DNA of 64,000 nt from Microglena sp. YARC (lineage: Eukaryota > Chlorophyta > Chlorophyceae > Chlamydomonadales > Chlamydomonadaceae), in assembly GCA_022414725.1 (NCBI GenBank), contig CM039462.1, positions 56,538,926 to 56,602,925 of the forward strand. The letters are read 5' to 3'. The translations under genes were made by a program, and so were the position numbers. Positions within the stretch are counted from its first letter, which is position 1. Each line of letters starts with the position of its first letter. The notes below the pieces were generated by a model. The model worked only from the letters and a program-made list of their open reading frames with translations. It had not been told where the DNA came from and did not search any database. This document shows positions 1-61,146 of the stretch, piece by piece.

Positions 1-1070
1 TGTTGGTGGTAGTGGTGGTGGTGGTGTGTGGGGGGGAGGCGTGACAAACTGGATGAGTACTGCTTCGCCTAATGCATGGCCTAGCAGTTCCTCGGACCAG
101 TCGGCTAGCTTGCAGGCCTGGGGTAGGTGGGTAGGGAGGGTGGGAGGTGGATGGGGTGGAAAGGTGAGAGTGGTGTGCGGGTGGGTGGGTGGGTGGGGTG
201 GGGTGGGGGTGGGGTGTGGGGTGGGGTGGTGGGTAGGGTGGGTGGAAGGTGACTAGTGGTGGTGGTGGTGGTGTGTGTGTGCGGTGTATGTGTGCGTGTG
301 TGCGTGTGTGTGTGTGTGTGCGGTGGTGGTGTGTGTGTGTGGGGGGGGGGGGGGGGGGGGGGGTATTTGGTTTGAGTTGGTGGAGGATCTCTTCTCTTAT
401 ACGAAATACTCTGGCAGTTACTCGGACCAGTCAGCTAGCTTGCAGGCCCTGGGGTAGGTGGGTAGGTATTTGAGTGAGTGAGTGTGTGTGTGTGTGTGTG
501 AGTGTGTGAGTTTGGGGGGGGGGGGGGGCGGGGGGGGTATTTGTTTGAGATGGTTGAGGATCTCTTCTCTTTTAAGGGGTGTGTGGGTGCGTGTGTGTGA
601 GAGGGGGTTGGAAGGTGGATAGGTGGGTGGTGAAGAGGGGTGTGTGTGTGGGGGGGGGGGATAGGGGGGGGAAGGTGGGTAGGGGGGGGGGGTGAAGAGG
701 GGTGTGTGGGTGCGTGTGTGTGGGAGAGGGGGGTGGAAGGTGGGTAGGTGGGTGGTGAAGAGGGGTGTGTGGGTGCGTGTGTTGGAGAGGGGGGTGGAAG
801 GTGGGTAGGTGGGTGGTGAAGGGGTGTGTGTGTATGCGAGGGATGGGTAGGTGGCTGGGTGATTTGGTTTTAGTTGGTTTGGTTTGTCAACTTCGTCTAA
901 TGCATGGCCCAGCATTTCCTCGGACCAGTCATCTTTCTTGCAGCCATGGGTCGTGTGTGTGTGTGGTGTGTGTGGGGGGGGAGATGTGATGTGTGTGAGT
1001 GTGACAGTGTGTGTGTGTGAGTGTGGTGTGGTGGTGGTTGTGGTGGTGGTTGGGTGGGGGGTGGCAAGAC
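1..1070. repeat. GT/G-rich microsatellite intron with embedded exon copies
   Basis: Plus strand is (GT)n, (GGGT)n and long G runs (for example 341-363 and 513-536), with a repeated unit of GTGGGTGCGTGTGTG and GAAGGTGGGTAGG between 570 and 840. On the minus strand, the sense of the cyclase gene, this is CA-rich sequence running towards an acceptor. Short protein-like islands at 419-460, 373-395 (EEILHQLK), 541-575 (REEILNHLK) and 918-960 are degraded copies of the neighbouring exon, not independent genes. Confidence 0.8.
72..117 (-). CDS. Cyclase domain-2 exon ([11 protein letters not shown])
   Basis: After an acceptor ending CCCCAG, the minus strand reads [19 protein letters not shown] in phase 0, continuing from HTIQ at 1075. 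In class III cyclases this place, after the AVF..PxxAIRW helix, typically holds a D-W-x-E-x-L-x-x-H segment. The downstream donor is unclear, so the exon may extend a little below 72. Two decayed copies lie in the intron at about 419-460 and 918-960. The latter reads [16 protein letters not shown] but lacks an AG directly before it, so this copy is the best candidate for the used exon. Confidence 0.42.
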
Positions 1071-2475
1071 TCACCTGTATTGTGTGCAGTGACCAGCGGA
1101 TGGCTGACAAGGGCTCTGGGAAGACAGCTAGCAACAAGCCATCTAGAGTGGCTTCTGCGAGGTAGCCGCCGTACTTCATTAGCTCATGCTGTACAGTTTG
1201 GAAATGGTGTACACCGTTAGCTTAAGCTGTACAGCTTGGTAATGGTGTACTTCATGAGCTGAAGCTGTACAGCTTGGCAATTGTGTACTTCATGAGCTGA
1301 AGCTGTACAGCTTGGTAATGGTGTACTTCATGAGCTGAAGCTGTACAGCTTGGTAATGGTGTACTTCATGAGCTGAAGCTGTACAGCTTGGCAATTGTGT
1401 ACTTCATGAGCTGAAGCTGTACAGCTTGGTAATGGTGTACTTCATGGGCTGAAGCTGTACAGCTTGGTAATGGTGTACTTCATGAGCTGAAGCTGTACAG
1501 CTTGGTAATGGTGTACTTCATGAGCTGAAGCTGTACAGCTTGGTAATGGTGTACTTCATGAGCTGAAGCTGTACAGCTTGGCAATTGTGTACTTCATGAG
1601 CTGAAGCTGTACAGCTTGGTAATGGTGTACTTCATGAGCTGAAGCTGTAAAGCTTGGTAATGGTGTACTTCATGAGCTGAAGCTGTACAGCTTGGTAATG
1701 GTGTACTTCACGAGCTGAAGCTGTACAGCTTGGTAATGGTGTACTTCATGAGCTGAAGCTGTACAGCTTGGTAATGGTGTACTTCATGAGCTGAAGCTGT
1801 ACAGCTTGGTAATGGTGTACTTCATGAGCTGAAGCTGTACAGCTTGGTAATGGTGTACTTCATGAGCTGAAGCTGTACAGCTTGGTAATGGTGTACTTCA
1901 TGAGCTGAAGCTGTACAGCTTGGTAATGGTGTACTTCATGAGCTGAAGCTGCACAGCTTGGTAATGGTACACTTCTTGAGCTGAAGCTGTACAGCTTGGT
2001 AATGGTGTACTTCACGAGCTGAAGCTGTACAGCTTGGCAATTGTGTAGTCATGAGCTGAAGCTTCGAAGTTTAACAATTGATCATTGTACTTACTTATCT
2101 CATGCTGCACACTTTTAAAATTGTGTACATCGTGAGCTGAAGCTGTACAGCTTGGCAATTGTGTACTTCATGAGCGCAAGCTGTACAGCTATAAAACATA
2201 TCATTGTACTTCATAAAATCATGCATCCACCCACCCACCCACAGATGTACTGCACCTACGCAGTTTGATGGTACACCCAAAGTGCGTCCTCAATAATGTG
2301 GTGTGGTAAGCTGTCTGCCCCCACCGCCCCCCCCCCCACCCCACCCCACCCCACCCCCCCACACACACACACACCATTACCACACACACGCACACACACA
2401 CAGATGTACTGCACCTGCGCAGTTTGATGGTACACCCAAAGTGCGTCCTCGAATAATGTTGGTGTGGTAAGCTGT

Positions 2476-2515
<40 letters not shown>

Positions 2516-4807
2516 ACACACACACCATTACCACACACACACACACGCACACACACACACAGATGTACTGCACCTGCGCAGTTTTGATGGTACACCCAAA
2601 GTGCCGTCCTCGATGATGTGGTGTGGTAAGCTGTCTGCCCCCCCCGCCCACCCCCCACCCCCACCCCCTCCCCCCCCCCCCCCCCCCACCCCCCACACAC
2701 ACAACCATTACCACACACACACGCACACACACACACAGATGTACTGCACCTGCGCAGTTTGATGGTACACCCAAAGTGCGTCCTCGATGATGTCCGGAGG
2801 TAAGCTGTCTGCCCCCACCGCCTTCATGAACACTATGGCGGCCTGACCATAGGGGGCCTCAAGGAAGCTAGGGCTTGCAGCGTCAAGGGTCTTGGGGGGT
2901 CCCAAAAAGGCGCAGCGGTGGACAAGATGGGGGGACATGGCCTAAAGTGGGTGTGGTGGTTGAGGGTGGTTGGGGGGGTTAGGGGGGGTTGGGGGGTCCT
3001 AGGAAGGCGCAGCGGTGGACAAGATGGGCGGACATGGCCTAAAAGTGGTGTGTGTGGTTGAGGGTGGTTGGGGGGGTTAGGGGTGGTTGGGTGTCTTAGG
3101 CAGACGCAGTGGTCGACGATATGGGGGCCATGGCCTAAAGTGGGGGTGGGCGTGGGGGTTGGGGGAGGTTGGGTGGTTTTGGGGGTTAAGGAAGACGCAA
3201 TGGTGGACGAGATGGGGGGGCCATGGCCAAACGTGGGGATGGGGGTGGTGGTTGGGGGGGGTTAGGGTGGTTGGGGGGTCTTCGGAAGACACAGTGGTGG
3301 ACAAGATGAGGGGCCGATGGCCTGAAGTGGGGTGGGGGTTGGGTTGGTTTTAGGGGTGGTTGGGCTCGGTTGGGGGTCCAATGAAGGCGCAGCGGTGGAC
3401 AAGATGGGGGGCCATGGCCTAAAGTGGGGGCTGGGGTGGGAGTGGGGTGGGGTGGGGGTGTTGGTGGTGATGGTGGTTCTGCACACATTTCAAGAATAAC
3501 CAGCTTACACACACACACATACCTGGTACAGGTTCACATACTATGTGGCTTCCTTTTTCAGCTTGTGGGCGCCCATACATTGAATAATAGACTTGAAATC
3601 ACTCCTCCCTACCCACCCACTCACACCCACACAACTACCAAGCACTACCAGCACACACACCTTGTACAGGTTCACATACTATGTGGCATTCGGTTTTGGC
3701 GGAGCCCCCCCTTCTGGGGGGCGGGAGCCCCCAGTGTTACCCATTTGTCCGTTCGTCCATCCATCCATCCATCCATCCATCCATCCATCCGTCTGACCGT
3801 GATGAAGCCCCGACACGTCAGCCAACGGTCTCGTAACTAACTCGCTTCCGTCGCCACCTGTCGCTCCCTCGCGATCACTCTCCGCCATTTTTTAGCGTCG
3901 CAGGCGACGCTGCATATAACTTATCAGCTTGTGGGCGCCCATACAACCTGTAACAGCCTCAAAATCACTCCCCCCACACCCCCACCACCCCCACCCACAC
4001 GACTTCAGGTGTAACCAGCACACACACACAAGCACACAACTATCAAGCACGAACAGCTTACACACACACACACACACCTGGTACATGTTCACATACTCAG
4101 CTGCATCCGTGCTTAGCTTGTGGGCGCCCATACAACCAGTAACAGCCTAAAACCTGCAACAGTCTCGAAATCACTCCCCCCCACCCCCACCCACCCACCC
4201 ACCCACACAACTGCAGGCATAACCAGCACACACCCCCACCCACGCAACTATCAAGCACGGACAGCTTACACACACACACATACCTGGTACAGGTTCACAT
4301 ACTCAGTTGCATCCGTGCTCAGCTTGTGGGCGCCCATACAACCAATAACAGCCTCGAAATCGGAGCCAGCGATGGGCAGAATGTCTTTGGTTGATTCATC
4401 CAACAGAACCATGGCACCCTGGGTGGCTTCCTCCACCAGCTTGGCCGCAGCAAGGGTTCCGCCTGTGTGTGTGTATTTGGGGGTTGGGTTGGGTCAGGGT
4501 GTGTGTTGGGTGGATCTCGATGTGCTTGTATATATATGTGTGTGTATGCACCCTGTGTGGCCTCCTCCACCAGCTTGGCCGCAGCAAGGGTTCCGCCTGT
4601 GGTGTGTTGTGTGTGTGTGGTGTGTGTGTGTGTGTGTGTGTGTGGGGGGGGGGGGTATCTAGATGTGTGTGCGTGAGTATGTATATGTGTGTATGTATGT
4701 GTGTATGTATGTATGTATTTATGTGTGTGTGTGTGTGTGTGAGTGTTTGGGGGGAGGGGGGTCTCTATGTGTGTGCGTATGTGTGTATGTGTGTGTATGT
4801 TTATGTA

Positions 4808-4865
<58 letters not shown>

Positions 4866-7800
4866 GATCTAGATGTGTGTGTGCGTATGTGTGTGTATGT
4901 GTGTGTGGGTATATGGGTGTATGTGTGTGGGTGGGTAGGTGCATATGTGTGTATGTATGTGTGTGCGTGTGCGTATGTGTATGTGTATATGTGTATGTGT
5001 GTGCATATGTGTATGTGTGTATGTGCATATGTGTGTATGTAGGTGTTTATGTGTGTGCATATGTGTGTGTGTATGTGCACATGTGTGTGTATGTGTGTGT
5101 ATGTCCCCTGGGTGGCCTCCTCCACGAGCTTGGTTGCAGCAAGCGTTCCGCCTGTGTGTATGTGTGCGTGTGTGTGTATATGTGTGTATGTATGTGTGTC
5201 TATGTGTGCATATGTGTGTGTGTATGCGTGTGTATGTGTGTGTGTGTGTGCATGTGTGTCTGTGTGTGTGTATGTAGGTATGTGTGTGTGTGTGTTAGTG
5301 TCTTGTGTGTATGTGTGTGTATGTATGTGTATGTATGTGTGCATGTGTGTGGATGTGTGTATACGTGTGTATGTATGTGTGTGTATGTGTATGTATGTGT
5401 GCATGTGTGTGTGTGTATATGTGTGCCTGTGTGTGTGTATGTGTGTATGTGTGTGTGTGTTAGTGTCTTGTGTGTATGAGTGTGTATGTATGTGCATGTA
5501 TGGGTGCATGTGTGTGTATGTGTGTATACGTGTGTATGTATGTGTGTGTATGTGTGTGTATGTGTGTATATGCGTGTATGTATGTATGTGTATGTATGTG
5601 TACATGTGTGTGTATGTGTGTGTATGTGTGTATATGTGTGTCTGTGTGTGTGTATGTAGGTATGTGTGTGTATGTATGTGTATGTATGTGTGCATGTGTG
5701 TGTATGTGTGTATACGTGTGTATGTATGTGTGTGTATGTGTATGTATGTGTGTATATGTGTGTGTGTATGTATGTGTATGTATGTGTGCATGTGTGTGTA
5801 TGTGTGTATATGTGTGTATGTATGTGTGTGTATGTGTGTATGTGTGTGTATGTATGTGTGGGTATGTGTGCATGTGTGTGTATGTGTGTATATGTGTGTA
5901 TGTGTGTGTATGTATGTATGTGTGTGTGCGTGTGTCTGGGGGGTGTCATTATTTGTGTGTGTTCTAATTATATTACATACCTGATATGATTACTATACCT
6001 CATCATTATAATAATATATACTACTACTTTGTATGCAAGTGCTACAAACACAATTGGACTGTGTATATGTGCATCTCATACTATGTTATAATAAATAGTA
6101 ATATTAAACGTGATCAAATATTAATTACACGATAATACTATTTACAATTGAAGGGTTCTGAATATAAAAAAAAATGATATATCTCCATAGGTGCCTAAGT
6201 CCAAAAACGCCCTAAGTTGGTACAAGATTGTGGTTCAGAGCCGTACAGGCCCCAAAATGCTCGGAATCGAATTCTGTCTGGCCCACCTTTCGCACAATTG
6301 TGTCAGCTACGCGCACATGTATTTCCGGTCCGCATCCGCATGCGGTGGCGAGCAGCCTTGTACGGAAGGCCGTTGGCAGTACATCAGATGCGCAATAAAT
6401 TGTGGTACAAATCCAGAGTGCGCCAGACACGAGGCCGCGCGAGCTATTCCGAATCATGTTACCGCGGGAAGAAAGGCTTATCAAACCCCTACCACAAGGT
6501 CAGAGGATGCGCTTCAACCTTGGCCTCAGAATTTACTGATAGCAGTACAACTCGAAAATTCACCTGATCACCTCCCAATCCCACCTCCCAACTTGAGATT
6601 TCACCCCCCTTTCCCAAATCAAAAACTAACTTCAGATGTGGATGTTTGAAACTAAGTTATAAAAAAAGTTGTTTTTTTAATATGTTTTAACAATTTCAAA
6701 TTAAAAAAAAAAAGTTATTCTTCGTGCTACGAAGCAAAGCTAAGACTTCAAATGAAACAATTCAGCTTGTGCAGCGTTGTACCACACTTAGGGCACCCAC
6801 AATATGTGAAGAATCAGTATTTTTAGGGTCCATATTCACCCGTACTGCCCATTTACTGCCATCCAAAACCTGATGTAACAAGGACTTATGCGGAAAGATG
6901 TGCACAATAGGGCTACCTACTTTTATTTTACGAAAACTTGTTTTTGATAGCGATAGGCTCCGTTCCACTTCTACATAAAATCCGCACCGACTTGGGGAGC
7001 CCCATAGTGGAAACAATCACATATTTTGCTTTGCCTGCTTCCCACAACCTGAGAGAACCCAACTCTGAGTATTTATATGTTGAACTGATGTGGTTACTTA
7101 TTAGCAGAAAACGTTTCTTTGGACTTGAGGTAGAAGGTGAAAACCATCCGTACCACTCAAGGTCGGACTTAGGCACTAATGGAGATAATGTAATACAATT
7201 TGATGTATGTGAATACAATGTAATACAATACAACGTAATACAATTTAATGCATGTGAATATAATATAATGTAATACAATTTAATGTATGTGAATATAATA
7301 TAATGTAATACAATTTGATTTTTGTGAATACAATATAATGTAATACAATTTAATGTATGTGAATATAATATAATGTAATACAATTTGATTTTTGTGAATA
7401 CAATACAATGTAATTTAATTTGATGTATGTGAATATAATGTAATACAATTTGACATGCTTGTGTTTCGGGTCCTACACATCTTGCGCACAACTCATCATT
7501 AAAAACACCCAATCAGGGTACTTCCAAGCGCGCGCTTTTGCGCGCTGGCGCGCTGCCTTTTTGAGCCTCACTGCGCGCTTTGCGCAGTTTTTTGCACCCC
7601 CCTGTGGGCGCAGCAAGCATTTTTTGCGCTTTTTGCACTGAAATGCGCACCTTTATTTTTCAGGTGCGCTAAAGCGCTGGCCAATTTGGTCAATGGAAGT
7701 ATGATACCCTGCACCCAATATCTTTTAACATAATAATTTTACTCATAATTTGCTACTATTTAAAATTCAAGGGTGCTGAATACAATGTACTGCAATCTAA

Positions 7801-8205
7801 TACAATTTCACATAATGCAAAATATAATGCAAAATATAATTCAATGTTATACAATTTGATACACGTGAATATAATTTAATTTAATACAATATAATGCAAT
7901 ATAATGCAAATTAACTTGCCTGTCTATCTGCACAACATCTGATGCATCCACCACCCCGGCATAGCAATTAAAAACAATATCTTATAACTATTATTATACT
8001 ATTTACAATTTTAGGTTCTATTTACAATTTAAGGAAGGTGCTGAATGTAATTGAACACAATGGATCATAATGTCATATACTTGTACTTGCCTTTGTATCT
8101 GGTCCTTCCCTTCTTACGCACAATATCTGACGAGTTCACCACACCGGCATGAATTCCCATTCACACGAAAGCCCTTGAATAGTAGAACAACACCGGGGCC
8201 AGGCC
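72..8205 (-). CDS. Class III nucleotide cyclase-like gene (multi-exon, partial)
   Basis: Gene model joined by eye from minus-strand exons. In protein order: 8091-8205 (core, GIHAGVV..GRTRYKG), a decayed block near 6380-6475 (possible NRAA-like part), 4284-4462 (domain C-terminus ending [18 protein letters not shown]), 2750-2941 (start of a second domain, [14 protein letters not shown]), 1075-1188 ([17 protein letters not shown]) and about 72-117 ([11 protein letters not shown]). The order and motifs fit class III adenylyl/guanylyl cyclase homology domains, which make cAMP or cGMP from ATP or GTP, and the two-domain layout is common in green-algal cyclases. The joins 4284/2941, 2750/1188 and 1075/117 are all phase 0 with AG and GT signals. 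The first metal-binding Asp of domain two (FxDxxG) is Lys here (FMKAVG), while the second Asp (LDG) is kept, so this domain may be inactive or need a partner. Both gene ends are missing. The family call rests on motif recall, not a search. Confidence 0.5.
1075..1188 (-). CDS. Cyclase domain-2 exon ([17 protein letters not shown])
   Basis: Exon of exactly 38 codons, phase 0 at both ends: acceptor TGTACAG before [13 protein letters not shown], donor CAG|GTGAGT after RWSLHTIQ. It follows YHQTAQ of the exon ending at 2750, giving [19 protein letters not shown], the usual approach of a class III cyclase domain to its second metal Asp (here LDG) and the strand LLLAVF, then the PEPLSAIRW helix. The ATG at 1179 is an internal Met and need not be a start. 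Confidence is high that this is an exon and moderate that the family is right. Confidence 0.65.
1189..2200. repeat. 38-bp tandem array of a splice-acceptor edge (~26 copies)
   Basis: Uniform 38-bp unit (plus strand CTTCATGAGCTGAAGCTG, then TACAGCTTGGTAATGGTGTA), about 26 copies with few substitutions, such as GGTAATG/GCAATTG alternation, decaying after 2040. Read on the minus strand the unit holds TGTACAG followed by AGCTCATGAAGTAC. This matches the acceptor and first codons of the adjacent exon (TGTACAG|CATGAGCTAATGAAGTAC at 1172-1195). The array therefore looks like repeated copying of that exon's 5' edge into the intron. Confidence 0.93.
2201..2749 (-). repeat. Three tandem copies of cyclase exon 3' edge with CA/C runs
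   Basis: Copies at about 2240-2330, 2400-2480 and 2560-2640 repeat the end of the exon finishing at 2750. On the minus strand they read [18 protein letters not shown] or close variants, followed each time by the donor context CAG|GTGCAGTACATC, then (GT)n and G runs (plus strand CA and C, including a C run of about 35 at 2479-2515). They are donor-edge duplications inside the intron, and the open frames through them are fused microsatellite. Confidence 0.82.
2750..2941 (-). CDS. Cyclase domain-2 N-terminal exon ([11 protein letters not shown])
   Basis: Exon of exactly 64 codons, phase 0 to phase 0: acceptor CACTTTAG|GCCATG, donor GCGCAG|GTGCAG. It reads [16 protein letters not shown], then [21 protein letters not shown] and [14 protein letters not shown]. 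This is the linker and first strand-helix of a class III cyclase homology domain: a hydrophobic strand, then FxDxxGFTxL in canonical members. Here the metal-ligand Asp is Lys (FMKAVG). It follows the exon ending NLYQ at 4284, which fits a domain-linker-domain order. Confidence 0.68.
2942..3440 (-). repeat. About five extra tandem copies of a cyclase exon 5' edge
   Basis: Period near 90-100 bp. Each copy carries, on the minus strand, TTTAGGCCATG followed by codons like PPHLVHRC (near 3010, 3105, 3200, 3295 and 3395 in addition to the true exon edge at 2941), then a G/GT-rich spacer (plus strand GGTTGGGGGGGTTAGG). The spacer is the polypyrimidine/CA side of an acceptor in the sense of transcription. 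The copies end after about 15 codons, so only the acceptor edge is amplified and not the whole exon. Confidence 0.8.
3500..4283 (-). repeat. Decayed copies of cyclase C-terminal exon 3' edge
   Basis: At least three copies of the end of the exon 4284-4462 lie downstream of its donor: about 4076-4165 ([22 protein letters not shown]), 3925-3985 ([15 protein letters not shown]) and 3520-3610, plus a remnant at 3660-3690. Each is separated by CA-rich plus-strand DNA, that is (GT)n in gene sense after the donor. A family-D short repeat (3693-3920) interrupts the last two. Confidence 0.78.
3693..3920 (+). repeat. Short dispersed repeat D, copy 1
   Basis: Begins TTTTGGCGGAGCCCC, has an internal hairpin of GGCGGAGCCCCCC with GGGGGGCGGGAGCC, a (CCAT)n insertion at 3758-3791, the block CACGTCAGCCAACGGTCTCG and ends with the small palindrome GCGTCGCAGGCGACGC. 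The same order recurs at 44960-45168 and, inverted, at 49412-49619, 55891-56144 and 56722-56933. No clear terminal inverted repeat or target duplication was seen; it could be a MITE or an unusual SINE. Confidence 0.75.
4284..4462 (-). CDS. Cyclase domain-1 C-terminal exon ([20 protein letters not shown])
   Basis: 179-nt exon between acceptor CACACACAG and donor CAG|GTATGTGTG. It starts in the middle of a codon and ends on a codon boundary. It encodes [16 protein letters not shown], then [16 protein letters not shown] and [18 protein letters not shown]. This fits the end of a class III cyclase homology domain, where GGQxLxSExT is followed by a hydrophobic strand and LGxHxLKGxxExxxLYQ. It is the largest intact cyclase exon in the window and is flanked on both sides by copies of its own edges. 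Confidence 0.68.
4465..5940. repeat. (GT)n/(GTAT)n microsatellite intron with two exon-edge copies
   Basis: Nearly pure plus-strand GT, GTAT and GTGC repeats with G runs at 4647-4657, 4751-4760 and 4850-4866. On the minus strand this is (CA)n leading to the acceptor at 4463. Two islands, 4550-4594 and 5105-5154, are copies of the first 16 codons of the adjacent exon ([16 protein letters not shown] and [16 protein letters not shown]), each again preceded by CACACAG on the minus strand. The long T/H- and C/V-rich open frames here are repeat translations. Confidence 0.9.
5941..6379. other. AT-rich spacer, then unassigned sequence
   Basis: 5941-6190 is AT-rich with no recognisable gene or repeat. 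6191-6379 is more complex and open in several frames on both strands, but I recognise no family in it. It lies between two cyclase exons and is probably intron, possibly with decayed coding sequence. Confidence 0.4.
6380..6475 (-). pseudogene. Possible decayed cyclase NRAA segment
   Basis: On the minus strand YRGNMI is followed, after a one-base frame change, by [13 protein letters not shown]. Class III cyclases have YxGxxVNxAARxAxxAxxGQ at exactly this point, between the GIHAG core (8091-8205) and the GGTLAAAK exon (4462). Position and partial motif agree, but the frame is broken and no clean AG/GT pair flanks it. Either a mutated exon, a copy of an exon not seen, or chance. Confidence 0.33.
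6480..6760. other. AT-rich spacer
   Basis: A- and T-runs around 6660-6712, and the short inverted repeat TTCGTGCTACGAA at 6721-6733. No gene seen. Confidence 0.4.
6762..7195 (-). pseudogene. Frameshifted coding-like block, unidentified
   Basis: Two minus-strand frames abut. One (about 7195-6928) reads [16 protein letters not shown] and [17 protein letters not shown]; the other (up to 6762) reads [17 protein letters not shown] and [17 protein letters not shown] before a stop. Codon balance looks protein-like and unlike the neighbouring AT repeats. The frames would join with one or two indels near 6940-7010. I recognise no family. Could be a decayed exon of the surrounding minus-strand gene or of a captured sequence. 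Confidence 0.28.
7180..7460. repeat. AT-rich minisatellite (TAATACAATTTAATGTATGTGAATA)
   Basis: Six to seven imperfect copies alternating AATACAATTTGATGTATGTG and AATATAATATAATG, about 50-60 bp per higher-order unit. Short AT-rich relatives continue at 7780-7910. Confidence 0.85.
7455..8090 (-). repeat. Decayed donor-edge copies of cyclase core exon in AT-rich DNA
   Basis: Downstream of the exon 8091-8205 the minus strand carries two degenerate copies of its end: about 7907-7962 ([12 protein letters not shown], followed by GCAAGT like the true exon) and about 7452-7500 (a poorer match). They are embedded in AT-rich tracts with AATACAATG repeats. This repeats the donor-edge duplication seen at other introns. 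Confidence 0.5.
7505..7690. other. GCGC-rich palindromic block
   Basis: Dense short inverted repeats of GCGC, for example GCGCGCTTTTGCGCGC at 7530-7545 and CTGCGCGCTTTGCGCAG at 7572-7588, inside AT-rich DNA. This could form hairpins. No ORF or known element is recognised. Confidence 0.45.
8091..8205 (-). CDS. Cyclase domain-1 core exon (GIHAGVV, possible frameshift)
   Basis: Acceptor CCACCATTCAG|GGCC. First frame [14 protein letters not shown], then a one-base shift into [16 protein letters not shown] and GRTRYKG. Class III cyclases have LFRGLRxxxGIHxGxV, then RxxYxG, so the two halves belong together and the extra base near 8153-8158 is a mutation or assembly error. The exon seems to end AAAG|GCAAGT, a GC donor. 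A relative at 7907-7962 has the same GCAAGT. Confidence 0.55.
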
Positions 8206-8318
8206 CTGAATGGTGGTGGATATGGTGGGTGGTGTGTGGGGTGGTGTGTGGTGTGTGGGGGATGCACCAGATACAATTCCAGTAGCATAAGGCTACACGC
8301 AAGTATGTGAAGCTTATC

Positions 8319-8910: not shown

Positions 8911-11900
8911 AACACCCACAATACACCCTTGCATGCACCCTGATGGCACCTGTATACACTCACAATACACCCTTGCATGCACCCTGATGGCACCTGTATA
9001 CACTCACAATACACCCTTGCATGCACCCTGATGGCACCTGTATACACTCACAATACACCCTTGCATGCACCCTGATGGCGCCTGTATACACTCACAATAC
9101 ACCCTTGCATGCACCCTTATGGCACCTGTATACACTCACAATATACCCTTGCATGCACCCTGATGCACCTGTATACACTCACAATACACCCTTGCATGCA
9201 CCCTTATGGCACCTGTATACACTCACAATACACCCTTGCATGCACCCTTATGGCACCTGTATACACTCACAATACACCCTACACCCTGCATGCACCCTGA
9301 TGGCACCTGTATACACTCACAATACACCCTTGCATGCACCCTGATGGCACCTGTATACACTCACAATACACCCTTGCATGCACCCTGATGGCACCTGTAT
9401 ACACTCACAATACACCCTTGCATGCACCCTGATGGCACCTGTATACACTCACAATACACCCTTGCACCCTTGCATGCACCCAATACAAACCCTTGTTGCA
9501 AGCACTGCACCCTGATGCATACACTCACAATACACCCTTGCATGCACCCTGCACCTAATACACTCACAATACATGCCCTTGCAATGCACCCTGATGATGG
9601 CACCTGGGCACCTATGGCACACTTTACCCTTTCTGCACCTTGTACACTCACAATACACCCTTGCATGCACCCTGATTGGCACCTGTATACACCACAATAC
9701 ACCCTTGCATGCACCCTGATGGCACCTGTACCACTCACAATACACCCTTGCATGCACCCTGATGGCACCTGTATACACACACAATACACCTTATGGCACC
9801 TGTATACACTCACACAATACACCCGTTGCATGCACCCTTATGGCACCTGTATACACTCACAATACACCCTTGCATGCACCCTGATGGCCACCTGTATACA
9901 CTCACAATACACCCTTGCATGCACCCTGATGGCACCTGTATACACTCACAATTATCACCCTTGCATGCCACCCTGATGGCACCTGTATATACTACACTTC
10001 ACAATACACCCTTGCATGCACCTGATGGCTGCACCTTATACGGTATAACACCTCACAAATACACCCTTGGCATGCACCCTTCATGGCACCTGTATTACCA
10101 CTCACAATACACCCTTGCATGCACCCTGGATGGCACCTGTTATACACTCACAATACACCCTTGCATGCACCCTTATGGCACCTGTATACCACTCACAATA
10201 CACCCTTGCATGCAACCCTGATGGCACCTGTATACACTCACCATACACCCTTGCTCATGCACCCCTGATGGCACCTGTATACACTCACAATACACCCTTG
10301 CCCCTTTTGGGCAAAACCCCTGCACCCACTTATGCATAGCACCTGTATACACTCACAATACACCCTTGCATTGAGCACCCTTATGGCACCTGTATACACT
10401 CACAATTACACCCTTGATACACCCTGCATGCACCCTGGCACCTATACACTCACAAATACCCACCCTGTACACCCCTTGCATGCACCCTGAATGGCACCTG
10501 TATACACTCACAAATACACCCCTTGCAATGCACCCTTATGGCACCTGTATACACTCACAATACACCCTTTGCATGCACCCTGATGGCACCTGTACCCTAC
10601 ACTCACAATTTACAACCTTGGCATGCACCCTTGATGGCACCTGTATACACTCACAATACACCCTTGCATGCACCCTGATGGCACCTGTATACACTCACAA
10701 TACCACCCTTGCATGCACCCTGATGGCACCTGTATACACTCACAATACACCCTTGCATGCACCCTTATGCACCTGGTATACACTCACAATTGCATGCACC
10801 CTATGCAACCTGTATACACTCACAATACAACCTTGCATGCACCCTGATGGCACCTGTATACACTCAACAATACACCCTTGCATGCCACCCTGATGGCACC
10901 TGTATACACTCACAATACACCCTTGCATGCACCCTGATGGCACCTGTATACACTCACAATACACCCTTGCATGCACCCTGATGGCACCTGTATACACTCA
11001 CAATACACCCTTGCATGCACCCTGATGGCACCTGTAACACTCACCAATACACCCTGCATGCACCCTGATGGCACCTGTATACACTCACAATACACCCTGG
11101 CACCTGTATAACATCACAATACAACCTTGCACCCTGATGGCACCTGTATACACTCACAATACACCCTTGGCACACCCACAATTCACAATACACCCTTGCA
11201 TGCACCCTTATGGCACCTGTATACACTTCACAATAAACCCTTGCATGCCCTGCACCTGTATGCACCTGACAATTACACCCTTGCATTCACCCTTAGGCAC
11301 CTGTATACACTCACAATAACAATACAGCCCTTGCACTGCACACCTGATGCCACCTGGTATACACTCCACATACACCCTGCATGTGCACCCTGCATGGCAC
11401 AACGTATACCCACTCACCCCCAATACACCCTTGCATACACCCTGCATGGCACAATGTACACCCTCACAATACACCCTTGCATGCCACCCTTTGATGGCCC
11501 TGATGGCACCTTATTTAATACACCCTTGGCACTCACAATACAAAATACCCTTGCATGCACCGCTTATGTATGGCACCTGTATACACTCACAAATACACCC
11601 TTGCATATACACTCACAATACACCCTTGCATGCACCCTGATGGCACCTGTATACACTCACAATACACCCTTGCATGCACCCTGATGCACCTGTATACACT
11701 CATGTTCAATACACCCTTGCATGCACCCTGCATGGCACCTGTATACACTCACAATACACCTTGCATGCATGATGCACCCTGATTGGCACCTGTATTACAC
11801 TCACAATTACACCCTTGGGCATGCACCCTGATGGACCGTATATACACTCACCAATACCACCCATCCACCCTGATTGCACCTGTATACACTCACAATTCAC

Positions 11901-14900
11901 ACACCTTGCATTGCACCCCTATGGTACAGCGTACACTCACTACCCCTTGCACCACCTGTATGTAATACGCACAATACACCTGCCCTTGGCATGCACCCTG
12001 ATGCACCTGTATACACTCACAATACACCCTTGCATGCACCCTGTAGGCCACCTGTATAAACACTCACATACACCCTTGCATGCCACCCTTATGGCACCTG
12101 TATACACTCCACAATACACCCTTGCATGCACCCTGATGGCACTGGCACCCTTATGGCACTGTATACACTCACAATACACCCTTGCATGCCGCCACCCTGA
12201 TGAGCACCTGTATATTTACACTCACAAATTTACAACCCTTTGCCACTGCACCTAATGGCAACCTGTTTATACACGTCACAATCACACCTTGCATGCAACC
12301 TCGAATGGGCACCTGTATACAACTTCACCAATACAACCCCTTGCATGCCAACCCTGGGATGGGCGCAACCTGTATACACTCCCACCCCAATTTACCAAAA
12401 CCCTTTTGGCCCCCACCTAGGGCACCTTATACACCCTCCCCCATTTTTAAATTTGGCCCACACAAAAACCCTTGCATGCCAACCTGATGGCACTGTGTCA
12501 TACACTCTGATGTGCATGTACCTTATGTGCTTGGTAATACCCCGACCTGTTACCCTTGCAATGCACTCTGATGGCAACACACTCACAATAATACTTGCAT
12601 ATGCACCCTGATTCGGCCATGTATCACACCCAAATTCATCCTTGCACACTCGCACCGTGTACACTCACAATAACACCCTTTGCAAGCACCTGCACTAGCA
12701 CAATGGATGATGGCACCTAGACACTCACAAACAGCCTGCATGCCCTGACGGCACCCGATGCACCTATACACGTCACAATACACCTCTTAGCATGCACCGC
12801 GTAAGGCACCTGTAACACTACACCCTTGCATGCAACCCTGATGCACCGACAATAACCCTGCAGTGCACCCCTATCGCACCTGATACACCTCGACAATACA
12901 CCCTTGCATGCACCCTTGGCATGCACCCTGATGGCACTTATAACACCACATACACCTGCATGCACCTGATGGCACTTGTACTACACTCACAATCCACCTG
13001 TGCAGCCCTTCTGGCACCTGTATACACTCACAATACACCCTGATCACCCGATGGCACCTGTATACAACACAAACAATCCCTTGCATGCAACCCTATGGCA
13101 CCTTATACCCTCACAATACACCTTGCTCATGCACCCTGGAGGATGGCACAGTGTATACTCACAACACCGCTTGCAAGCACCCTATGGCACCTGTATACAC
13201 TCACATAACCCTTAGCATGCACCTGATGCACCTTAACCTCACAATCACCCTTGCATGCACCCTTATGGCACCTGTATACACCACAATACACCCTTGGCAT
13301 GCACCTGAATGGCACCTTGAACACTCACAATACACCCGTAGCATGCACCCTGATGCACCTTTAACCCACAATACACCCGTGGCATGCACCCGAGCACGCT
13401 GAATCCACTCACAAATACACCTTGCATGCACCCCTGACTCACCTTATGACACCACAATACACCTTCATGCCCGCGATGGCCACCTTAACACCACAATACA
13501 ACCCTTGCAGCACCCTGGAGCACCATTATACACTCCACAATACACTCCTGGCAAGCACCCTCGGACCTTGTATACACCACAATAACACCCTTGCAGCACC
13601 TCTCGGCACTGTAACACCACAAACACCCTGCATGCACCCGATGCACCTGTAACACTCACAATACAACCCTCATGCACGCGATGCACCGGTGTAACACCCA
13701 CATACACCTGCATGCACCCTAGCACCTGACACACTCACATACACAGCCCTTGCATGCACCTGATGGCAGCCTAGATACACTCACAAACACCCTGCATCAC
13801 CCTTTATGGCACCTGTATACACTCACAAATACACCCTTGCATGCACCCTATGGGAACTGTAAACACTCACAAACACCCTTGCATCACCGAGGCACCTGTC
13901 AACACTCACAATAGCACCCTTTAGCTGCATGCACCCGAGGCACCTGTATAACCACAATACACCCTGCAGCACCCTGATGGCACCTGTATACACCACAATA
14001 CACCCTTGCAAACACCTTACGCACGCTGTATACCTCACAATACACCTCTTAGCATGCACCTGAGGCACCTGTATACACTCACAATACAGGCCTGCATGCA
14101 CCCTTATGCACCGATACACCACAATACACCTGGCACCCTGAGGCAACCTATAAACTCACAATACACCTTGCATGCCCCCTGATGGCACCCTGTATACATC
14201 ACACTACACCTTGCAGCACCCTGAGGCACCCTGAACAACTCAAATACAACCCTCAGCACCCGAATGGCACCTAACCACATCACAGACACCGCATCACCTT
14301 TGGCACCTGTATGACACCACAATCACCTTGCATTCACCCATGGCACTGTGACACTCACAATAACCCTTGGCAAGCACCTATCTCACCTGTATAACTCACA
14401 CAATACCCCTTGCATGCACCCGAGGCACCTTACACCTCACATACCCCTGCATGCACCCGATGGCACTGTATACCTCACAATACCCTGCCATGCCAAACTA
14501 GGCACCTGAACACCACAATACACCCTGCATGCACCCAGCACCTTAAATACACCACATACACCCTGGCATCACGCTGAGGCACTGTATACACCACAAACAC
14601 CCTCGCATGCACCCTTAGCAACCGTCAACACTCCACATACTCCCTGCAAGCACCATAATCACTGATCACATGTAACACTCACAACACACCCTTGCAATGC
14701 ACCCTTATGGGCAACTGTATACACTCACAATACACCCTGGCTCAACCCTATGACCTGTAATACACCAACAAACAACCTTGCATGCACCGTAGCACCTGAA
14801 CACTCACAATACAACCTTGGCATCACCTGATGGCACCTTAGACCTCACAACACACCTGGCAGCCACCCTGAAGGCACCGGTAACATCACAATACAACCCT

Positions 14901-42864: not shown

Positions 42865-42937
42865 CAGATTTCTGTAGGTCAGGTTGAGTAGCTACTTGGG
42901 ATACCCAAGCCTGATTTCAGGATTGTTGCGTAGCCCC

Positions 42938-42998
<61 letters not shown>

Positions 42999-43188: not shown

Positions 43189-43223
<35 letters not shown>

Positions 43224-44883: not shown

Positions 44884-44959
44884 TTTCCGTACTGTTTAAT
44901 GGAGGGGTGCCCCATTAAATGGCCCCCTTTCCCCCTTTGGCGATTTTTAGTTTTGACGA

Positions 44960-47042: not shown

Positions 47043-47158
47043 GTGAGTCCCAATACAAGTACTTCATTTTAAAGCCATTGCCTGGCTTGAGTCAGCCTAC
47101 AACGAGGATAACTAACTTCAACTCTGCCCAACTGGAAGAATAGAAGCAATCAGGTGAA

Positions 47159-55479: not shown

Positions 55480-55688
55480 CTACTCTTCCACCATGTCCAT
55501 GCTACGGAGTTTGGGACCATTGTCTGCTGCCCCCAGCCCACCGGCCTTGTCAGCGTCCTTCTGGTTATGTGGCCTGGCTGTGGTAAGTAGCATCTTCAGC
55601 CTGGGGGGGGAGGTGGGGTAAGGTCAGGTAGCTGTGATGTTGAGGAGTTGGTAGGGGTGTAGGTAGGGTAAGTAGCACCTTCAGTCTA

Positions 55689-55743: not shown

Positions 55744-58700
55744 AGGTAGGAGGAGGTAGCTGTGATGTTGAGGAGTTGGTAGGGGGTAGGTAGGGCCGTG
55801 GTGAGTGGCATCAATTAGCTCAAGGATCTGCCTTGAAGCCGAAATGAAAAATAATAACTTTGTTTTTAGCGCTGCCCGCTGCTCTGTGAAACGAACAAGT
55901 CCTATGCAGCGTCGCAAGCGACGCGGAAAATTGGCGGAGTGTGTTGGCAACAGATCGGAAGGTGGCAACGATGGAGCTGACCGAAGCGGGTTAGTTAGGC
56001 GACTGTTTGGCTGACGTGTCAGGTTGTAGTGGCGGACAGGTGAGTAACGCGTAAGAATCTACCTTTTTCATTTTTGTTGTCGGACGGACAAATGGGTAAA
56101 CATGGGGGCTCCCGCCCCCTTGAAGAGGGGGCCCCGCCAAAAACGAGCAAGGTCCCCTCACAACATCGCGCGGTAGTACTAGCTCAGGCGAAGTTGCTGT
56201 CTAAGAAACCAAAATACCCAAACATAGTAGCCATTACAGTATGTCCGGTACAAGCAAACTGGAGGGTTCTTTCAATCTCACGTCCTGTAGCAGCTCGTAC
56301 TATTTTTCATTTTTCAACCCCCTCACAACAGCCGCCGTACTTTAGTGCTCCATTTATTACTCACTTGTGCTCTGTTGGCCTATGAGAAAGTTGCTGGAAT
56401 CAAGGATCTGCCTTGAAGCAGTTAAGAAAAAAGGTAATGAAACGCCTGGTGGGGCGTGGTGTTAAGGGAGCCCCTCGTACGCGGGTGGGGAGCGGTCTCC
56501 TACCTCAACTGGACAAGCTACCATCGCGGTTGACGACGACCTGCAACGTCAATAGCGACCGAAGGGGGAGACGAACCCCCGACTCTTCGTCCTCCAGCAA
56601 TCTGGTCTACCACTGGACCATTGTATGTCACTGAGAGGGGCTTTGAAGCAATTAAGAAAACCCAGAAAATGGTGTGTGTTTATACAACCCACGGCTGGAA
56701 GCTGCAGTACGAAATAAAATATACCTATGCAGCGCTACAAGCAACAAAGAAATTGGCGGATGGTGTTGGCAACAGAACGACAGATGGCAACAATGACCAA
56801 AGCCAGTTAGTTATGAGACAGTTGGCTGACGTGCCAAGCTTCGTTTTTTAGATCAGTCGGTCTGACGGACAACGGACAACGGAGTGCATCTGGGGGCTCC
56901 TGCCCCCAGGAGGGGGGGGGTCTACCAAAAACAAAGATACCCCCCCTCTCCCCCTCCCCCCCAAAAATGGGTGTACGAAAAACAAACAAGGTACACAACA
57001 AAACATGGGTGTACGAAAAACATGGGTGTACGAAAAACATGGGTGTACAAAAACATGGGTGTACAAAAACATGGGTGTACAAAAACATGGGTGTACGAAA
57101 AACATGGGTGTACGAAAAACATGGGTGTACAAATACATGGGTGTACAAAAACATGGGTGTACGAAAAACAAACAAGGTACCCACACAACAGCACCCACAT
57201 TTTTGGTACTTGCTACATAACTCACTTGCACGTGTGTGAATTTGTTTCGCTGCGTGTAACCGGAAAGAAAAAAAGGCAACGGTCAAAGGCAAAGGGCAAA
57301 AACAATGGTATTTCCTAATTGTTCACTTGTGTGTGGGGGGCTTGGTGCTGCTGCCTATAACGGAAAAAAACAAAGGAATACAAGAGACAACAAACAGAGG
57401 AAACTAAAAGGCATAAAGCAAAACGGACTGTGCTATGCCCTGGTATTCCCCACAACACTCACTTGCGCGTGTGTGGCTTGGTGCTGCTGCGTGTAAAAAA
57501 GGCAACAAACAAGGGCAACTAAAAGGAGCTTTAAAAAAAAGTTGTATTCCCCACATTACTCACTTGCGCTTGTGAGGCTTGGTAGCATCAAGCAACAAAA
57601 CAAAAAAGAAACAAACAAACAAACAGAAAACGTGGGTATTCCATACATTACTCACTTGCGCTTGTGAGGCTTGGTAGCATCATGTAACAAAACAAGAAAG
57701 AAACAAACAAACAGAAAACGTGGGTATTCCATACGTTACTCACTTGCGCTTGTGAGGCTTGGTAGCATCAAGTAACAAAACAAGAAACAAACGAAAAAAG
57801 AGGAATGAAAAAGAGATGACAAACGTGGGTATTTCACACATTGCTAGAGTGTGCTTGTGAGGCTCGGTATCGTCATGTAAACAAACAAAAAAACGAATAA
57901 AAGAGACACAAAGAGACGAAAAACGCGAGTATTCCACACATTACTCACGTGTGCGTGTGAGGCTTGGTATCGTCATGTAAACAAACAAATGATAAAATAG
58001 ACAACAACAAAAACATTGGTATCCCCCACATGACTCACATGAGATTGTGAGGCTTGGTTGCGTCATGAAACAAAATACAAAAAAACGAATTAAAGAGACT
58101 AAAACGTGACAACAAACGTTGGTTTTCCCCACAACACTCACTTGCGCGTGTGAGGCTTGGTAGCGTCATGTAAACAAACAAATGATTAAATAGTCAAAAA
58201 TAAAACAAACATTGGTATCCCCGACATTACTCACTTGCGCTTGTGAGGCTTGGTTGCATCATGATCAGCATGAGCTTGTGCGTTGATAAAGTAGCGAGAG
58301 CACGCCAGACAGTAGAACTTTCCAAAGCCTGGGGTGTCTTCATCCAGCTCGACCCTGTGTAGTGCCGCAGTGTGTGGGTTTTGGGGTTAGGAATTAGGGT
58401 TCAGGGTTTTGCAATTTAGGGTTGAGAAGTTAGAAGTGCACAAGCAGTGGATACAGCTCAACCCTGTGTAGTGCCGCAGTGTGTGGGTTTGGGGGTTAGG
58501 GTTTAGGGTTTTGCAATTTAGTGCTAAGGAGTTAGGATGTAGGGTTATAAGTGCACAAGCAGTGAATACAGCTTGACCCTGTTTAATGCCGCAGTGGGTG
58601 GGTTTGGGGGTTAGGAATTAGGGTTTTATAATATAGTGCTAAGGAGTTAGGATTTAGGGTTTTAAGTGCACAAGCATCGAATGTTGCGCCATGGTCAGGT

Positions 58701-59775
58701 GGTGTGTGTGTGTGAGAGTGTGTGTATATGCATGCGTGTGTATGTGTGTGTGTGCACAAGCAGTTGCGCCATGATCAAGTGGTGTGTGTGTGTGAGTGTG
58801 AGTGTGTGTATATGTGTGCGTGTGTATGTGTGTGTGTGCACAAGCAGTTGCGCCATGATCAGCAAGCGCTTGTGCGTTGATACAGGAGCGAAAGAACAGC
58901 TGGGAGTACAACTTTCTAAAGACTGGGGCGAGGGGGTGGGGCAAGAAAAAAGCTGCCGTTCCGCATCTTCGGTATAAATAGAGCTTACCCTTCAGGGAAC
59001 ACACACAAAGGTTTTTGTTATCCAAAAATAAAGTTGTACGCAAGTTAGTGGGGTCCAAAGTTGTTTTGACCCTAAAACAGCCCAAATCTTAACTTCGTGA
59101 TAACCCTGGACTGGGGTGTCCTTGTCCGGCTCGACCCTGTGAGGTGCAATGAACAGAATTCATTGGGTGTGGTGTATGAGTTCGGTGTGTGTGGTGTGTG
59201 TGTACGAATGTGTGAGGTGTGTGTGAGTATTTATGTGGGGGGGGAGGGTTAATGTGTGGGGGGGATCTGTGAGTGTGAGTAAGAGTGGAAGTGTTTGTGG
59301 TTATTGTTTGTGGGTTTATGAGAGTTGATGTGTGCTCAGTGTGGTGTGTGTTTGTGTGGGGGTTGGGGTGGGGTTGGGTGGGGGGTTGGGGTTGGGGTGG
59401 GGTTGGGGGCTCAGTGTGGTGTGGTGGTCGCATGGTGTGTGTGTTTGTATGTGTGCTGGGTGTGCTGGGGAGGCTCAGTGTTGTGTGGTTGTAGCGTGGT
59501 GTGTGTGGGGGGGGAGGGTGTGGGGGGAGGGTGTGTGGTGTGGTGTGTGTATGTGGTGCTCAGTGTGGTGTGGTGTGCGTGTGGGGGAAAGGGTGTGCGG
59601 TGTGTGGTGTGTGTGTGTGGTGTATGTGGTGTATGTGTGGTGGTGGTGGTGTGTGTGTAGGAGGGGGGGGGGGGGGGGGGGGGCGTGATTGTATGTGTAT
59701 GTTGTGTGTATGAGTGTTTGTGTATGTGTGGTGCTGGTGGTGCTGGTGGTGTGTATGTGTGCGTGTTTTGGGTGT

Positions 59776-59806: not shown

Positions 59807-61146
59807 GGGGGGATATGTGTGTAGGGGAGGTCAGTGTGGTCAGGTAGTAGCATGTACACGTATGCATGGTGCTGGTGGTGATATATATACATGTACACAT
59901 GCACATGTGTACGTGCACATGCATACGTGTACATGTGCATGTACACGTATGCATGGTGCTGGTGGTTGTATATATGCACATACACACACACATTTGTATG
60001 TGTACATGTGCATGTAAATGTACTATCTTCACACAGCCACACACAGTGTAAAGAATATAGTGTGAAGTGTGTGAGGATATGCATCTGACAAGGCGCCAAC
60101 TAGGACAAACACAGTGAGCAGTGAAAGAGAGCCTTACTAAGATGAGTGACCCTTGAGGTGTGTGGATGTACATATATTCTCTGAATACATAGCAATATGG
60201 ATTTACCTTGTTATTTGTCGGAACATCGAAACACATGACGCACACACACACACACACACATACACGCACTCACACACACGCACTCACACGCACACACACT
60301 CCCAGGCAGCATTCTCGACATTTCTCATTTTCTTATAATTTCAGGGCAGAAGTGAGGTACAAAGTACGACCTGAAAAATCAAAATCCAAATCATCCGCTG
60401 ATTAGCAGACAAGGGCAATATGATATCATATCATGTAATTGGTATGATATCATATAGTCTGACTAGGCTAAGGTACCATTTATATACAATATCATATTTT
60501 GCAATTGGTATGATACCATACTTGCCTTAGGTCAACATCATATGCTATGCCAGTCCCTATGTATTAGCAACCCTGATGCCCTCCCCCCCCAGGCACATGC
60601 ACAGCAATCATTCAGACTGCCAGTCAACCAGTCAGATCATCACAACCACTTAGACCAACTGTGGGGTGCGCATGAGTATTACACACCAACCCATACATAA
60701 AACGTTGCATTACTTTGTCATTGACAGGCAATTGCTAGCCCAAGACAACCCCGCTCAACTTCATCTGGGAGACGATGTAAATACGTTTGAGTAATACACA
60801 CTAGGCTGGAGTGTCCACTGAGGCGGAGGCTCAGATTTCAAGCGGTACAAACACAGTACATACCACTCATAATACAGTACACACGACAACCAACTCAGTG
60901 CACACCTGCCCCCCTCACCTCACCCAGCACACCCCCTTCCCCCTTTACTCACTTGGCTGTTGTACCCACGGGGCCAACCTTTCCAGGCTGGTGCACCTCC
61001 GACGAGGGCCTGCGAATGTCCTCCCACACCTGGTCGACGTGCCTGTTCAAGAACTTGGTTCGCAGTAGCTGCTTATTCTTTTTTCCGCCTTGCTTGTGGC
61101 TCGTGCCAGTGCATCGCTTGCCAATTCCATTTCCTTTCTTGGGCAT
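55480..61146 (-). CDS. ZNF593: BUD20/ZNF593-type C2H2 zinc-finger protein, complete, 3 exons
   Basis: Exon 1 61146-60953 (ATG; MPKKGNGIGKRCTGTSHKQG, RTKFLNRHVDQVWEDIR), exon 2 58354-58235 (VELDEDTPGFGKFYCLACSR, HDATKPHKR), exon 3 55600-55480 (LKMLLTTARPHNQKDADKAG, GLGAADNGPKLRSMDMVEE, TAG). Both introns are phase 2 and join AA|G, with donors GTGAGT and acceptors ACACAG and CCCCAG. The product is 144 residues. The family (human ZNF593, yeast Bud20) is a nuclear shuttling factor bound to pre-60S ribosomal particles, so the likely role is large-subunit export. LDEDxPGxGxFYCxxCxRYF and HxxxKPHKR give the single zinc finger (C-x2-C..H..H), and PHxQxDAD..AGG.G..DNGPKL is the plant-type tail. The introns, 2.6 kb each, are packed with repeats and copies of the exon edges. 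Homology is certain at motif level, the exon model strong, transcription untested. Confidence 0.9.
55601..55812 (-). repeat. Two copies of BUD20 exon-3 acceptor edge and poly-G
   Basis: On the minus strand, GACTGAAGGTGCTACTTACC at 55668-55688 and TTGATGCCACTCACCACGG at 55797-55816 copy the first codons of exon 3 (GCTGAAGATGCTACTTACC). The run G54 at 55689-55742 stands where the C-rich pyrimidine tract of the acceptor would be, so the tract was amplified with the edge. Confidence 0.72.
55891..56144 (-). repeat. Short dispersed repeat D, copy 4
   Basis: Contains GCAGCGTCGCAAGCGACGCG, GGCTGACGTGTCAGG, a 45-bp insertion with GGTGAGTAACGCGTAAG and the hairpin GGGGGCTCCCGCCCCC .. GGGGGCCCCGCC. Confidence 0.78.
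56145..56439. other. Intron spacer
   Basis: Nothing recognised except CAAGGATCTGCCTTGAAGC at 56401-56419, also present at 55822-55840. Confidence 0.4.
56440..56635 (-). repeat. tRNA-derived SINE, copy 2
   Basis: Minus-strand head with A box TGGTCCAGTGGTAGACC and B box GGGTTCGTCTCCCCC, body GTTGCAGGTCGTCGTCAACC and tail CACGCCCCACCAGGCG. Aligns along its whole length with 42549-42745. Confidence 0.8.
56722..56933 (-). repeat. Short dispersed repeat D, copy 5
   Basis: Most diverged copy: GCAGCGCTACAAGC, AGACAGTTGGCTGACGTGCC, GGGGGCTCCTGCCCCC. Confidence 0.7.
56960..57175. repeat. ACATGGGTGTACGAAAA minisatellite
   Basis: About 12 units of 16-18 bp (ACATGGGTGTACAAAA and ACATGGGTGTACGAAAA). Open frames on both strands (HGCTKTWVYKN and FVHPCFSYTHV types) are repeat translations. 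Confidence 0.93.
57215..58234 (-). repeat. Ten tandem copies of BUD20 exon-2 donor edge
   Basis: Directly past the exon-2 donor, ten further copies of the last 9 codons plus splice donor occur at about 58133, 58029, 57939, 57838, 57735, 57649, 57554, 57453, 57318 and 57218, spaced 86-135 bp. Several retain DATKPHKR with AA|GTGAGT unchanged on the minus strand (57735, 57649, 57554). Spacers are (AAAC)n-rich on the plus strand. Similarity falls with distance from the exon. Confidence 0.92.
58355..59145 (-). repeat. Copies of BUD20 exon-2 acceptor edge and a decayed exon 2
   Basis: The 5' edge of exon 2 with its acceptor (minus strand CTGCGGCACTACACAGGGTC) recurs at about 58450-58475 and 58567-58590, with GGGTTAGGGTTTAGGG spacers. 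A larger decayed duplicate is split: its 5' part (59108-59132) reads VEPDKDTP after CACAG and its 3' part (58855-58920) reads KLYSQLFFRSCINAQALADH, having lost both Cys ligands. Short pieces of the latter (GCGCCATGATCA) recur at 58770 and 58688 between GT repeats. Confidence 0.82.
59146..60413. repeat. GT/G-rich then CA-rich intron sequence
   Basis: (GT)n and G runs (59661-59683, 59791-59812) to 59820; two copies of CATGTACACGTATGCATGGTGCTGGTGGT at 59850 and 59938 around a palindrome-rich TGTACATGTGCATG section; (CA)n at 60240-60300. In gene sense (minus) this reads GT-rich near the donor and CA-rich near the acceptor. Confidence 0.85.
60414..60526 (+). repeat. Repeat E, copy 3
   Basis: GGCAATATGATATCATATC to GATACCATACTTGCC, with AGTCTGACTAGGCTAAGGTA in the centre. 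Terminal inverted repeat GGCAA(G)TATGATATCAT. Confidence 0.8.
60527..60952. other. Intron 1 donor-proximal spacer
   Basis: Mixed sequence with ACAGTACACAC repeats at 60850-60900 and CACC/CCCC-rich DNA next to the exon-1 donor. No gene seen. Confidence 0.4.

Follow-up and report, generated by a model that had tools for sequence, protein, structure and literature searches.

The stretch of DNA analysed here (hereafter the window; 64,000 nucleotides) belongs to the nuclear genome of the green alga Microglena sp. YARC (568 Mb, 2390 contigs) and carries on its minus strand a BUD20-like gene and part of a guanylate-cyclase gene. The BUD20-like protein has matches that include Chlamydomonas eustigma, Chlamydomonas sp. 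UWO 241, Tetrabaena and Edaphochlamys. When its exons are joined at the outermost splice sites (61146-60953, 58354-58235 and 55600-55480) they give the EukProt predicted protein P0001 in 144 of 144 residues, and the same two introns were recovered by spliced alignment with the C. eustigma orthologue as guide. The exons of the cyclase were set by the paralogues P0028 and P0029 and by 9.9 kb of sequence lying left of the window, which place the true start of its exon Ed ("ACKLADW") at window coordinate -272, i.e. 273 bases left of the window. The exons are as follows:

60953..61146, minus strand: BUD20-like exon 1, identical to P0001
58235..58354, minus strand: BUD20-like exon 2, with the C2H2 zinc finger PF12171, set by identity to P0001 and spliced alignment
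55480..55600, minus strand: BUD20-like exon 3, set by identity to P0001 and spliced alignment
8089..8206, minus strand: cyclase exon E-1, donor read as GC (GCAAGT)
4284..4462, minus strand: cyclase exon Ea, 93.5% to P0028
2750..2941, minus strand: cyclase exon Eb, set by paralogue alignment
1075..1188, minus strand: cyclase exon Ec, set by paralogue alignment

The frame of exon E-1 departs from that of the paralogues within the exon, because of which the functionality of this cyclase is uncertain. The E-1 donor at position 8088 reads GCAAGT, making a GC-AG intron probable, and the degenerate intronic copy of this donor edge is closer to the protein of the paralogues (DASDVV) than the E-1 exon itself.

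The window also contains a satellite of ~38-44 bp units at 8912-20410 (~11.5 kb), which reaches a gap of 1000 Ns at 20501-21500 and looks more indel-rich near it, as if read quality dropped. Retrotransposon-like reading frames in opposite orientations lie at 24494-36767, and those at ~30.7-31.6 kb (minus) and 34.4-35.4 kb (plus) are very much alike by eye, which suggests an inverted pair of elements. Inspection by eye shows two short dispersed elements. One has a CGACGACGCG start and occurs at 47164, 47867 and 50147, and the other has a GCAGCGTCGC motif and occurs at ~3925, 45160, 49420 and 55900; a copy of the latter interrupts an exon-edge copy in the Ea donor array (see below). Tandem repeats within long open frames at 43980-44278 (periods 42 and 87, multiples of three) and at 46187-46395 point to the survival of frame-preserving duplications in coding sequence as well.

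Copies of exon edges at splice junctions

A preliminary description of the window had reported serial copies of the adjoining exon edge, together with its splice site, just inside introns. We counted such copies by aligning exon-edge queries, with periods also determined by TRF. The core of that claim stands: rows of exon-edge copies, mostly with an intact GT or AG, lie inside introns of both the BUD20 and the cyclase gene, with corrections to some of the counts and to the supposed decay of identity with distance. The arrays and copies recovered are the following (slash in motifs, splice junction):

58345..59147, minus strand: BUD20 exon 2 acceptor-edge copies, AG at 58463, 58578 and 59136; TRF period 115 x 2.9
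57225..58264, minus strand: BUD20 exon 2 donor array, 10 copies, 9 with GT
55666..55688, minus strand: BUD20 exon 3 acceptor-edge copy (CTAG/ACTGAA), by alignment
7918..7962, minus strand: degenerate copy of the E-1 donor edge, by alignment; absent from the preliminary description
4557..5151, minus strand: two Ea acceptor-edge copies, at 4596 and 5151, by alignment
3500..4354, minus strand: Ea donor array, unit ~206 nt, splice-site copies at 4077, 3660 and 3522
2892..3468, minus strand: Eb acceptor array, unit 97 nt, 5 copies, by TRF and alignment
2228..2816, minus strand: Eb donor array, unit 159 nt, 3 copies with GTGCAG, by TRF and alignment
1171..2190, minus strand: Ec acceptor array, unit 38 nt, 25 copies, by alignment
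49..945, minus strand: three Ed acceptor-edge copies, at 945 (without AG), 447 and 117, by alignment; absent from the preliminary description

The ten extra copies previously claimed at the BUD20 exon 2 donor were all found by alignment, nine of them with GT, plus one weak copy. They are 88-136 nt apart and carry 20-30 nt of the exon edge each, and the periods of the array (88, 100, 193 and 293) suggest that multi-unit blocks were duplicated. The acceptor of the same exon, credited with two or three copies, has three and an exon-internal piece (58847-58928). At the exon 3 acceptor just one of two claimed copies passes the threshold, and exon-edge alignment gave no copies at the exon 1 donor.

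In the cyclase the earlier counts were closely reproduced. Alignment recovered both copies claimed at the Ea acceptor (CACAG/GCGGAACC), three copies plus fragments at the Ea donor (NLYQ/GTATGT; at least three claimed), one of them broken by an insert, all five at the Eb acceptor (AG/GCCATG), with the AG kept in four, and all three at the Eb donor (YHQTAQ/GTGCAG). At the Ec acceptor (TGTACAG), for which about 26 had been given, there are 25 copies by alignment and 26.7 units by TRF. The Eb acceptor array and the Ea donor copies together make up most of the 1342-nt intron between these exons, in which the ~500 nt separating the two TRF arrays contain two further copies and the insert, while the Eb-Ec intron consists almost entirely of two converging arrays. 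The Ec donor has no copies by exon-edge alignment. The Ed copies in the window are intronic, because the true start of Ed lies at -272.

Spacing in the window ranges from 38 to ~206 nt, each copy carries 18 to ~78 nt of exon, and the copies mostly end exactly at the junction, with a few exon-internal fragments. The earlier statement that only the edge of the exon is copied holds in most cases (18-133 nt); among the exceptions is an exon of 109 nt copied in full at 99%. The statement that identity falls with distance did not hold up: none of nine arrays shows a significant trend, with seven of nine coefficients negative and most arrays too short for power. In the BUD20 donor array the identities from near to far are 0.87, 0.87, 0.85, 0.74, 0.92, 0.97, 0.95, 0.79, 0.69, 0.72 and 0.70 (Spearman -0.52, P 0.10).

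Two further sites listed earlier do contain arrays, at 42369-42506 (51 bp x 2.6) and 48649-48918 (87 bp x 3.1), at which the junctions could not be fixed. In the public gene model P0030 the first two of the 42.4-kb copies are read as coding and the 48.9-kb exon is absent. In the region 42382-47545 the model takes exon-edge copies for coding sequence at either end, and a degenerate copy of the exon edge ending TTREHS lies near 47430-47545. Exon-edge arrays may mislead gene prediction in this genome.

Copies are present at 9 of 11 junctions in the window, one of which (Ed at 117) is itself a decoy, as against 14-17% of random non-coding points outside the satellite and 25-36% of random points within the two gene spans (all at scores 36-40). 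With exon-only queries, copies were found at 6 of the 11.

Recurrence in other genes and comparison with control points

A sample outside the window was assembled from gcvP, metH and two carB paralogues (carB_C6 and carB_C5), located by three E. coli proteins regardless of repeats, with introns set by spliced alignment (9 in gcvP, 8 in metH, 16 in carB_C6 and 25 in carB_C5). With introns shorter than 120 nt and junctions of low complexity left out, the intron next to the junction contains a copy of its edge at 38 of 115 junctions, and at 36 of these the dinucleotide stands in splice register (copied edges by gene: gcvP 2/18, metH 3/16, carB_C6 9/32, carB_C5 24/49); these are four genes of three families, and carB_C5 supplies 24 of the 38 positives. 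Removal of introns with weak alignment or a non-GT donor (14 of 58: gcvP 3/9, metH 3/8, carB_C6 1/16, carB_C5 7/25) leaves copies at 27 of 88 junctions, 26 in register. Splice register alone is no evidence that junctions are targeted, because any array that crosses a junction carries the site in register. Overall, copies were found in all six genes counted, across four contigs, and junction-crossing copies amount to 175 at 47 of 131 junctions.

Several other loci were set apart. Spliced alignments of the cyclase loci L020-L033 were unreliable (scores 76-120 among those listed), and their 236 junction rows were excluded from all counts; L019 was realigned together with the cyclase of the window. 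The array at L020, described here and left uncounted, is a row of eight 180-bp units with a donor-like edge at its end. The first unit was taken to be the exon, GTAAG is missing from the last, and seven near-identical copies differ jointly from the presumed exon. The secA matches were excluded as fragments on small contigs, and these secA-like pieces (C2249, C2254 and C2287) are possibly unplaced or contaminating sequence. At the metH locus (L016-L018) a metH exon region of 1.5-1.9 kb occurs in three tandem copies, and one metH intron holds a wholly intronic 5-kb array with a 41-bp unit repeated 111 times at 98%.

The arrays are head-to-tail copies with a regular period of 38-358 (TRF and alignment). 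In ten of them the nearest relative of a copy is another copy in 53 of 64 cases (only one of three in the Ea donor array), a measure that is biased towards many copies over a single exon. Copies are on average closer to one another than to the exon in five of the ten, plainly so in those of Ec, the Eb donor and L020, and the reverse is true of the other five (e.g. BUD20, mean identity 0.73 between copies vs 0.83 to the exon).

Their effect on intron length is best seen in the carB paralogues (L034-L040), which have 13 intron positions in common and extend from first to last match over ~14 kb and 42 kb respectively. Across these shared introns the difference in length tracks the difference in tandem-repeat content (Spearman 0.74, P 0.004, n=13), and array-free introns of 191, 136 and 123 nt correspond to introns of 235, 847 and 4791 nt in the other paralogue. 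The copy-bearing junctions are not the same in the two. This correspondence and the position of arrays in introns bear out the view that introns were lengthened by tandem duplication. Copied edges are absent from all four introns below 250 nt and present in 20 of 40 above that length, but a short intron has little room for copies.

As the closest control we took points lying 30-120 nt inward of the same intron ends; these were given most weight because their search range equals that of the junctions. Against them, the filtered junctions of the four outside genes show no excess of copies (27/88 seen, 33.2 expected), with 9/44 vs 15.3 at donors and 18/44 vs 17.9 at acceptors. The same holds for the unfiltered junctions (38/102 vs 45.3; donors 12/52 vs 19.5, acceptors 26/50 vs 25.8) and for the window genes (donors 4/7 vs 4.8, acceptors 5/6 vs 4.4). 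The proposal of the preliminary description that a process acts at and outward from splice junctions thus finds no excess over adjacent intron in its favour, either outside or in the window, in a count run on the sampled genes rather than genome-wide.

Points placed anywhere in the same introns, which see only part of the intron, favour this proposal in part: overall, 38/115 junctions were seen vs 32.3 expected in the same direction and 45.2 in either direction. In the same-direction comparison acceptors are in excess (26/50 vs 14.6) and donors are not (12/52 vs 16.0). In the window genes this comparison yields 11/16 vs 6.6-9.0. Arrays outside the window touch junctions about as often as expected from random placement (4/12 vs 3.1, P 0.38; by TRF flags alone 3/12). 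In the window genes they do so far more often (8/22 vs 2.1, P 0.0003; by TRF flags alone 5/22), in a test that uses present intron lengths, themselves made by arrays, and genes chosen for their arrays. For these counts the Eb donor, Ed acceptor and BUD20 donor arrays were extended, and one gcvP array was counted as touching by alignment. The enrichment in the window genes probably reflects ascertainment together with short ancestral introns. In all, 22 of 34 arrays touch no junction.

Decoy splice sites

As the preliminary description proposed, the arrays leave behind decoy splice sites, in that most copies retain a GT or AG in splice register. Among the 175 junction-crossing copies the retention of GT is 95.9% and that of AG 93.0%, vs 85-88% at the centre of control copies, which were not matched for composition. 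Each of 30 decoys checked would lead to a stop codon or a frameshift if used (21 of the 25 Ec decoys are outside this set). The decoys are not purged, and splicing is therefore probably independent of weak decoys. As judged from protein identity and alignments, it apparently uses the outermost donor and acceptor and ignores the decoys. In a human EST study the sites closest to each other across the exon are favoured in long introns (PMC9225289). These correspond to the outermost sites here, and by this analogy exon definition is the likely mechanism of choice; the human rule comes from competing sites in ESTs and not from arrays like those of the alga.

Copies are rarer at donors (11/57) than at acceptors (25/58; P 0.009) in gcvP, metH and both carB genes, and after filtering they occur at 9/44 donors and 18/44 acceptors (P 0.06). 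One reading of this asymmetry is selection against decoy donors downstream of the true one.

Origin of the arrays and its implications

The above observations are, in our estimate with a probability of about three in four, best accounted for by local tandem duplication that is blind to junctions and lengthens introns, with duplications crossing one junction surviving since the outermost sites stay in use. The genome of this alga of chlamydomonadalean type would undergo frequent local tandem duplication of ~40-360 nt stretches without regard to splice junctions, presumably by slippage or unequal exchange. Duplications within exons would mostly be lost to selection. Those inside introns or over a single junction would be tolerated because the outermost donor and acceptor remain in use, leaving the protein the same and the intron longer, and some arrays might then amplify further from within. 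Introns free of arrays can measure ~120-190 nt, comparable to the repeat unit, so that, if introns start out at such a size, a large share of the survivable duplications must cross a junction. In a toy model restricted to survivable duplications, with unit sizes chosen by us, those spanning a junction make up 95, 84, 73, 54, 35 and 19% for introns of 100, 150, 200, 300, 500 and 1000 nt. The excess of acceptor over donor copies is unexplained by junction-blind duplication alone.

The interpretation in the preliminary description shares with this reading the lengthening of introns by tandem duplication, the copying of edges and the decoys left behind, and differs in holding that growth is directed at the junction, slippage or repair at the exon-intron border recopying the exon edge so that introns extend outward. 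The frequency of copies at window junctions relative to random points (9/11 vs 14-36%), the window arrays touching junctions (8/22 vs 2.1 expected), the acceptors compared with points anywhere in the same introns (26/50 vs 14.6) and the five of ten arrays in which copies are on average nearer to the exon than to each other are all in keeping with it. Given the lack of excess over adjacent intron points outside or within the window, the non-significant decay of identity with distance, and the 22 of 34 arrays lying away from junctions, we regard junction-directed growth as unlikely. Still less probable is that selection keeps the copies, for instance because alternative splicing is regulated through them or because they provide redundancy of splice sites. 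The retention of GT and AG slightly above that in control copies would fit with this, against a control unmatched in composition, but each of the 30 decoys checked would shift the frame or introduce a stop, copies at donors fall below and not above the level in adjacent intron, and the carB paralogues carry copies at different junctions.

An artefact of long-read assembly, by which repeats were expanded or mis-joined, appears highly improbable. The 1000-N gap in the window does adjoin an indel-rich satellite, and the copies are identical in one array (cyclase intron 5 donor); however, mean copy-copy identity is 0.73-0.97 in the other nine arrays, copies occur in 6/6 genes counted on four contigs, and one array is broken by an insert. 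Least probable of all is the notion that the arrays are added introns and exons like those of the potato RdRp gene, although the first step, a duplication crossing a junction, would be shared (PMC4974935). Against it, BUD20 is a three-exon protein with no added pieces, and the 13 carB intron positions are common to both paralogues despite their different array content.

Junction-blind duplication may be set beside several known systems. Introners are elements that insert their own copies into many genes, and the algal arrays resemble them as a repeat process shaping introns at genome scale; unlike introners, each array appears to repeat its own exon edge, through which each of the copies was found. 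Minisatellites and satellite arrays, tandem repeats with monomers above 10 bp (PMC8226300), share the head-to-tail, locus-specific units found within introns and between genes; the difference is that many algal arrays overlap the ends of coding exons and contain splice sites that look functional. A single tandem duplication over an intron-exon boundary of the potato RdRp gene copied the splice site and exon edge, as here, and gave rise to an additional intron and exon, both in use according to RNA-Seq (PMC4974935); in the alga, by contrast, about a third of the sampled junctions carry copies, up to ~25 at one junction, which seem to be spliced out as part of the intron already present. The gain of introns through tandem duplication, reviewed in PMC3443670, is similar in that local duplication supplies intronic sequence beside exons; in the alga existing introns are lengthened, and no new intron was seen. 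Among the openly licensed papers searched we found none describing unused copies of exon edges in rows at as many as about one in three of the junctions sampled. The process of duplication is a known one; its scale in this alga is striking.

These arrays provide a concrete and countable route of intron lengthening that needs no transposons. They also constitute an annotation hazard, one public gene model in the window reading exon-edge copies as coding. If the sampled rate applied genome-wide, one genome would contain very many natural competitions between splice sites, and the choice by the spliceosome of the true edge among near-identical copies, as well as the tolerance of donors as against acceptors, become directly testable. 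Tentatively, and at somewhat less than even odds, it is conceivable that about a third of junctions face unpurged GT or AG decoys with the outermost site still being used, that introns are growing arrays without loss of splicing accuracy, and that duplication is tolerated on the acceptor side and selected against on the donor side. If this were true, the alga would represent a natural mass experiment on exon definition.
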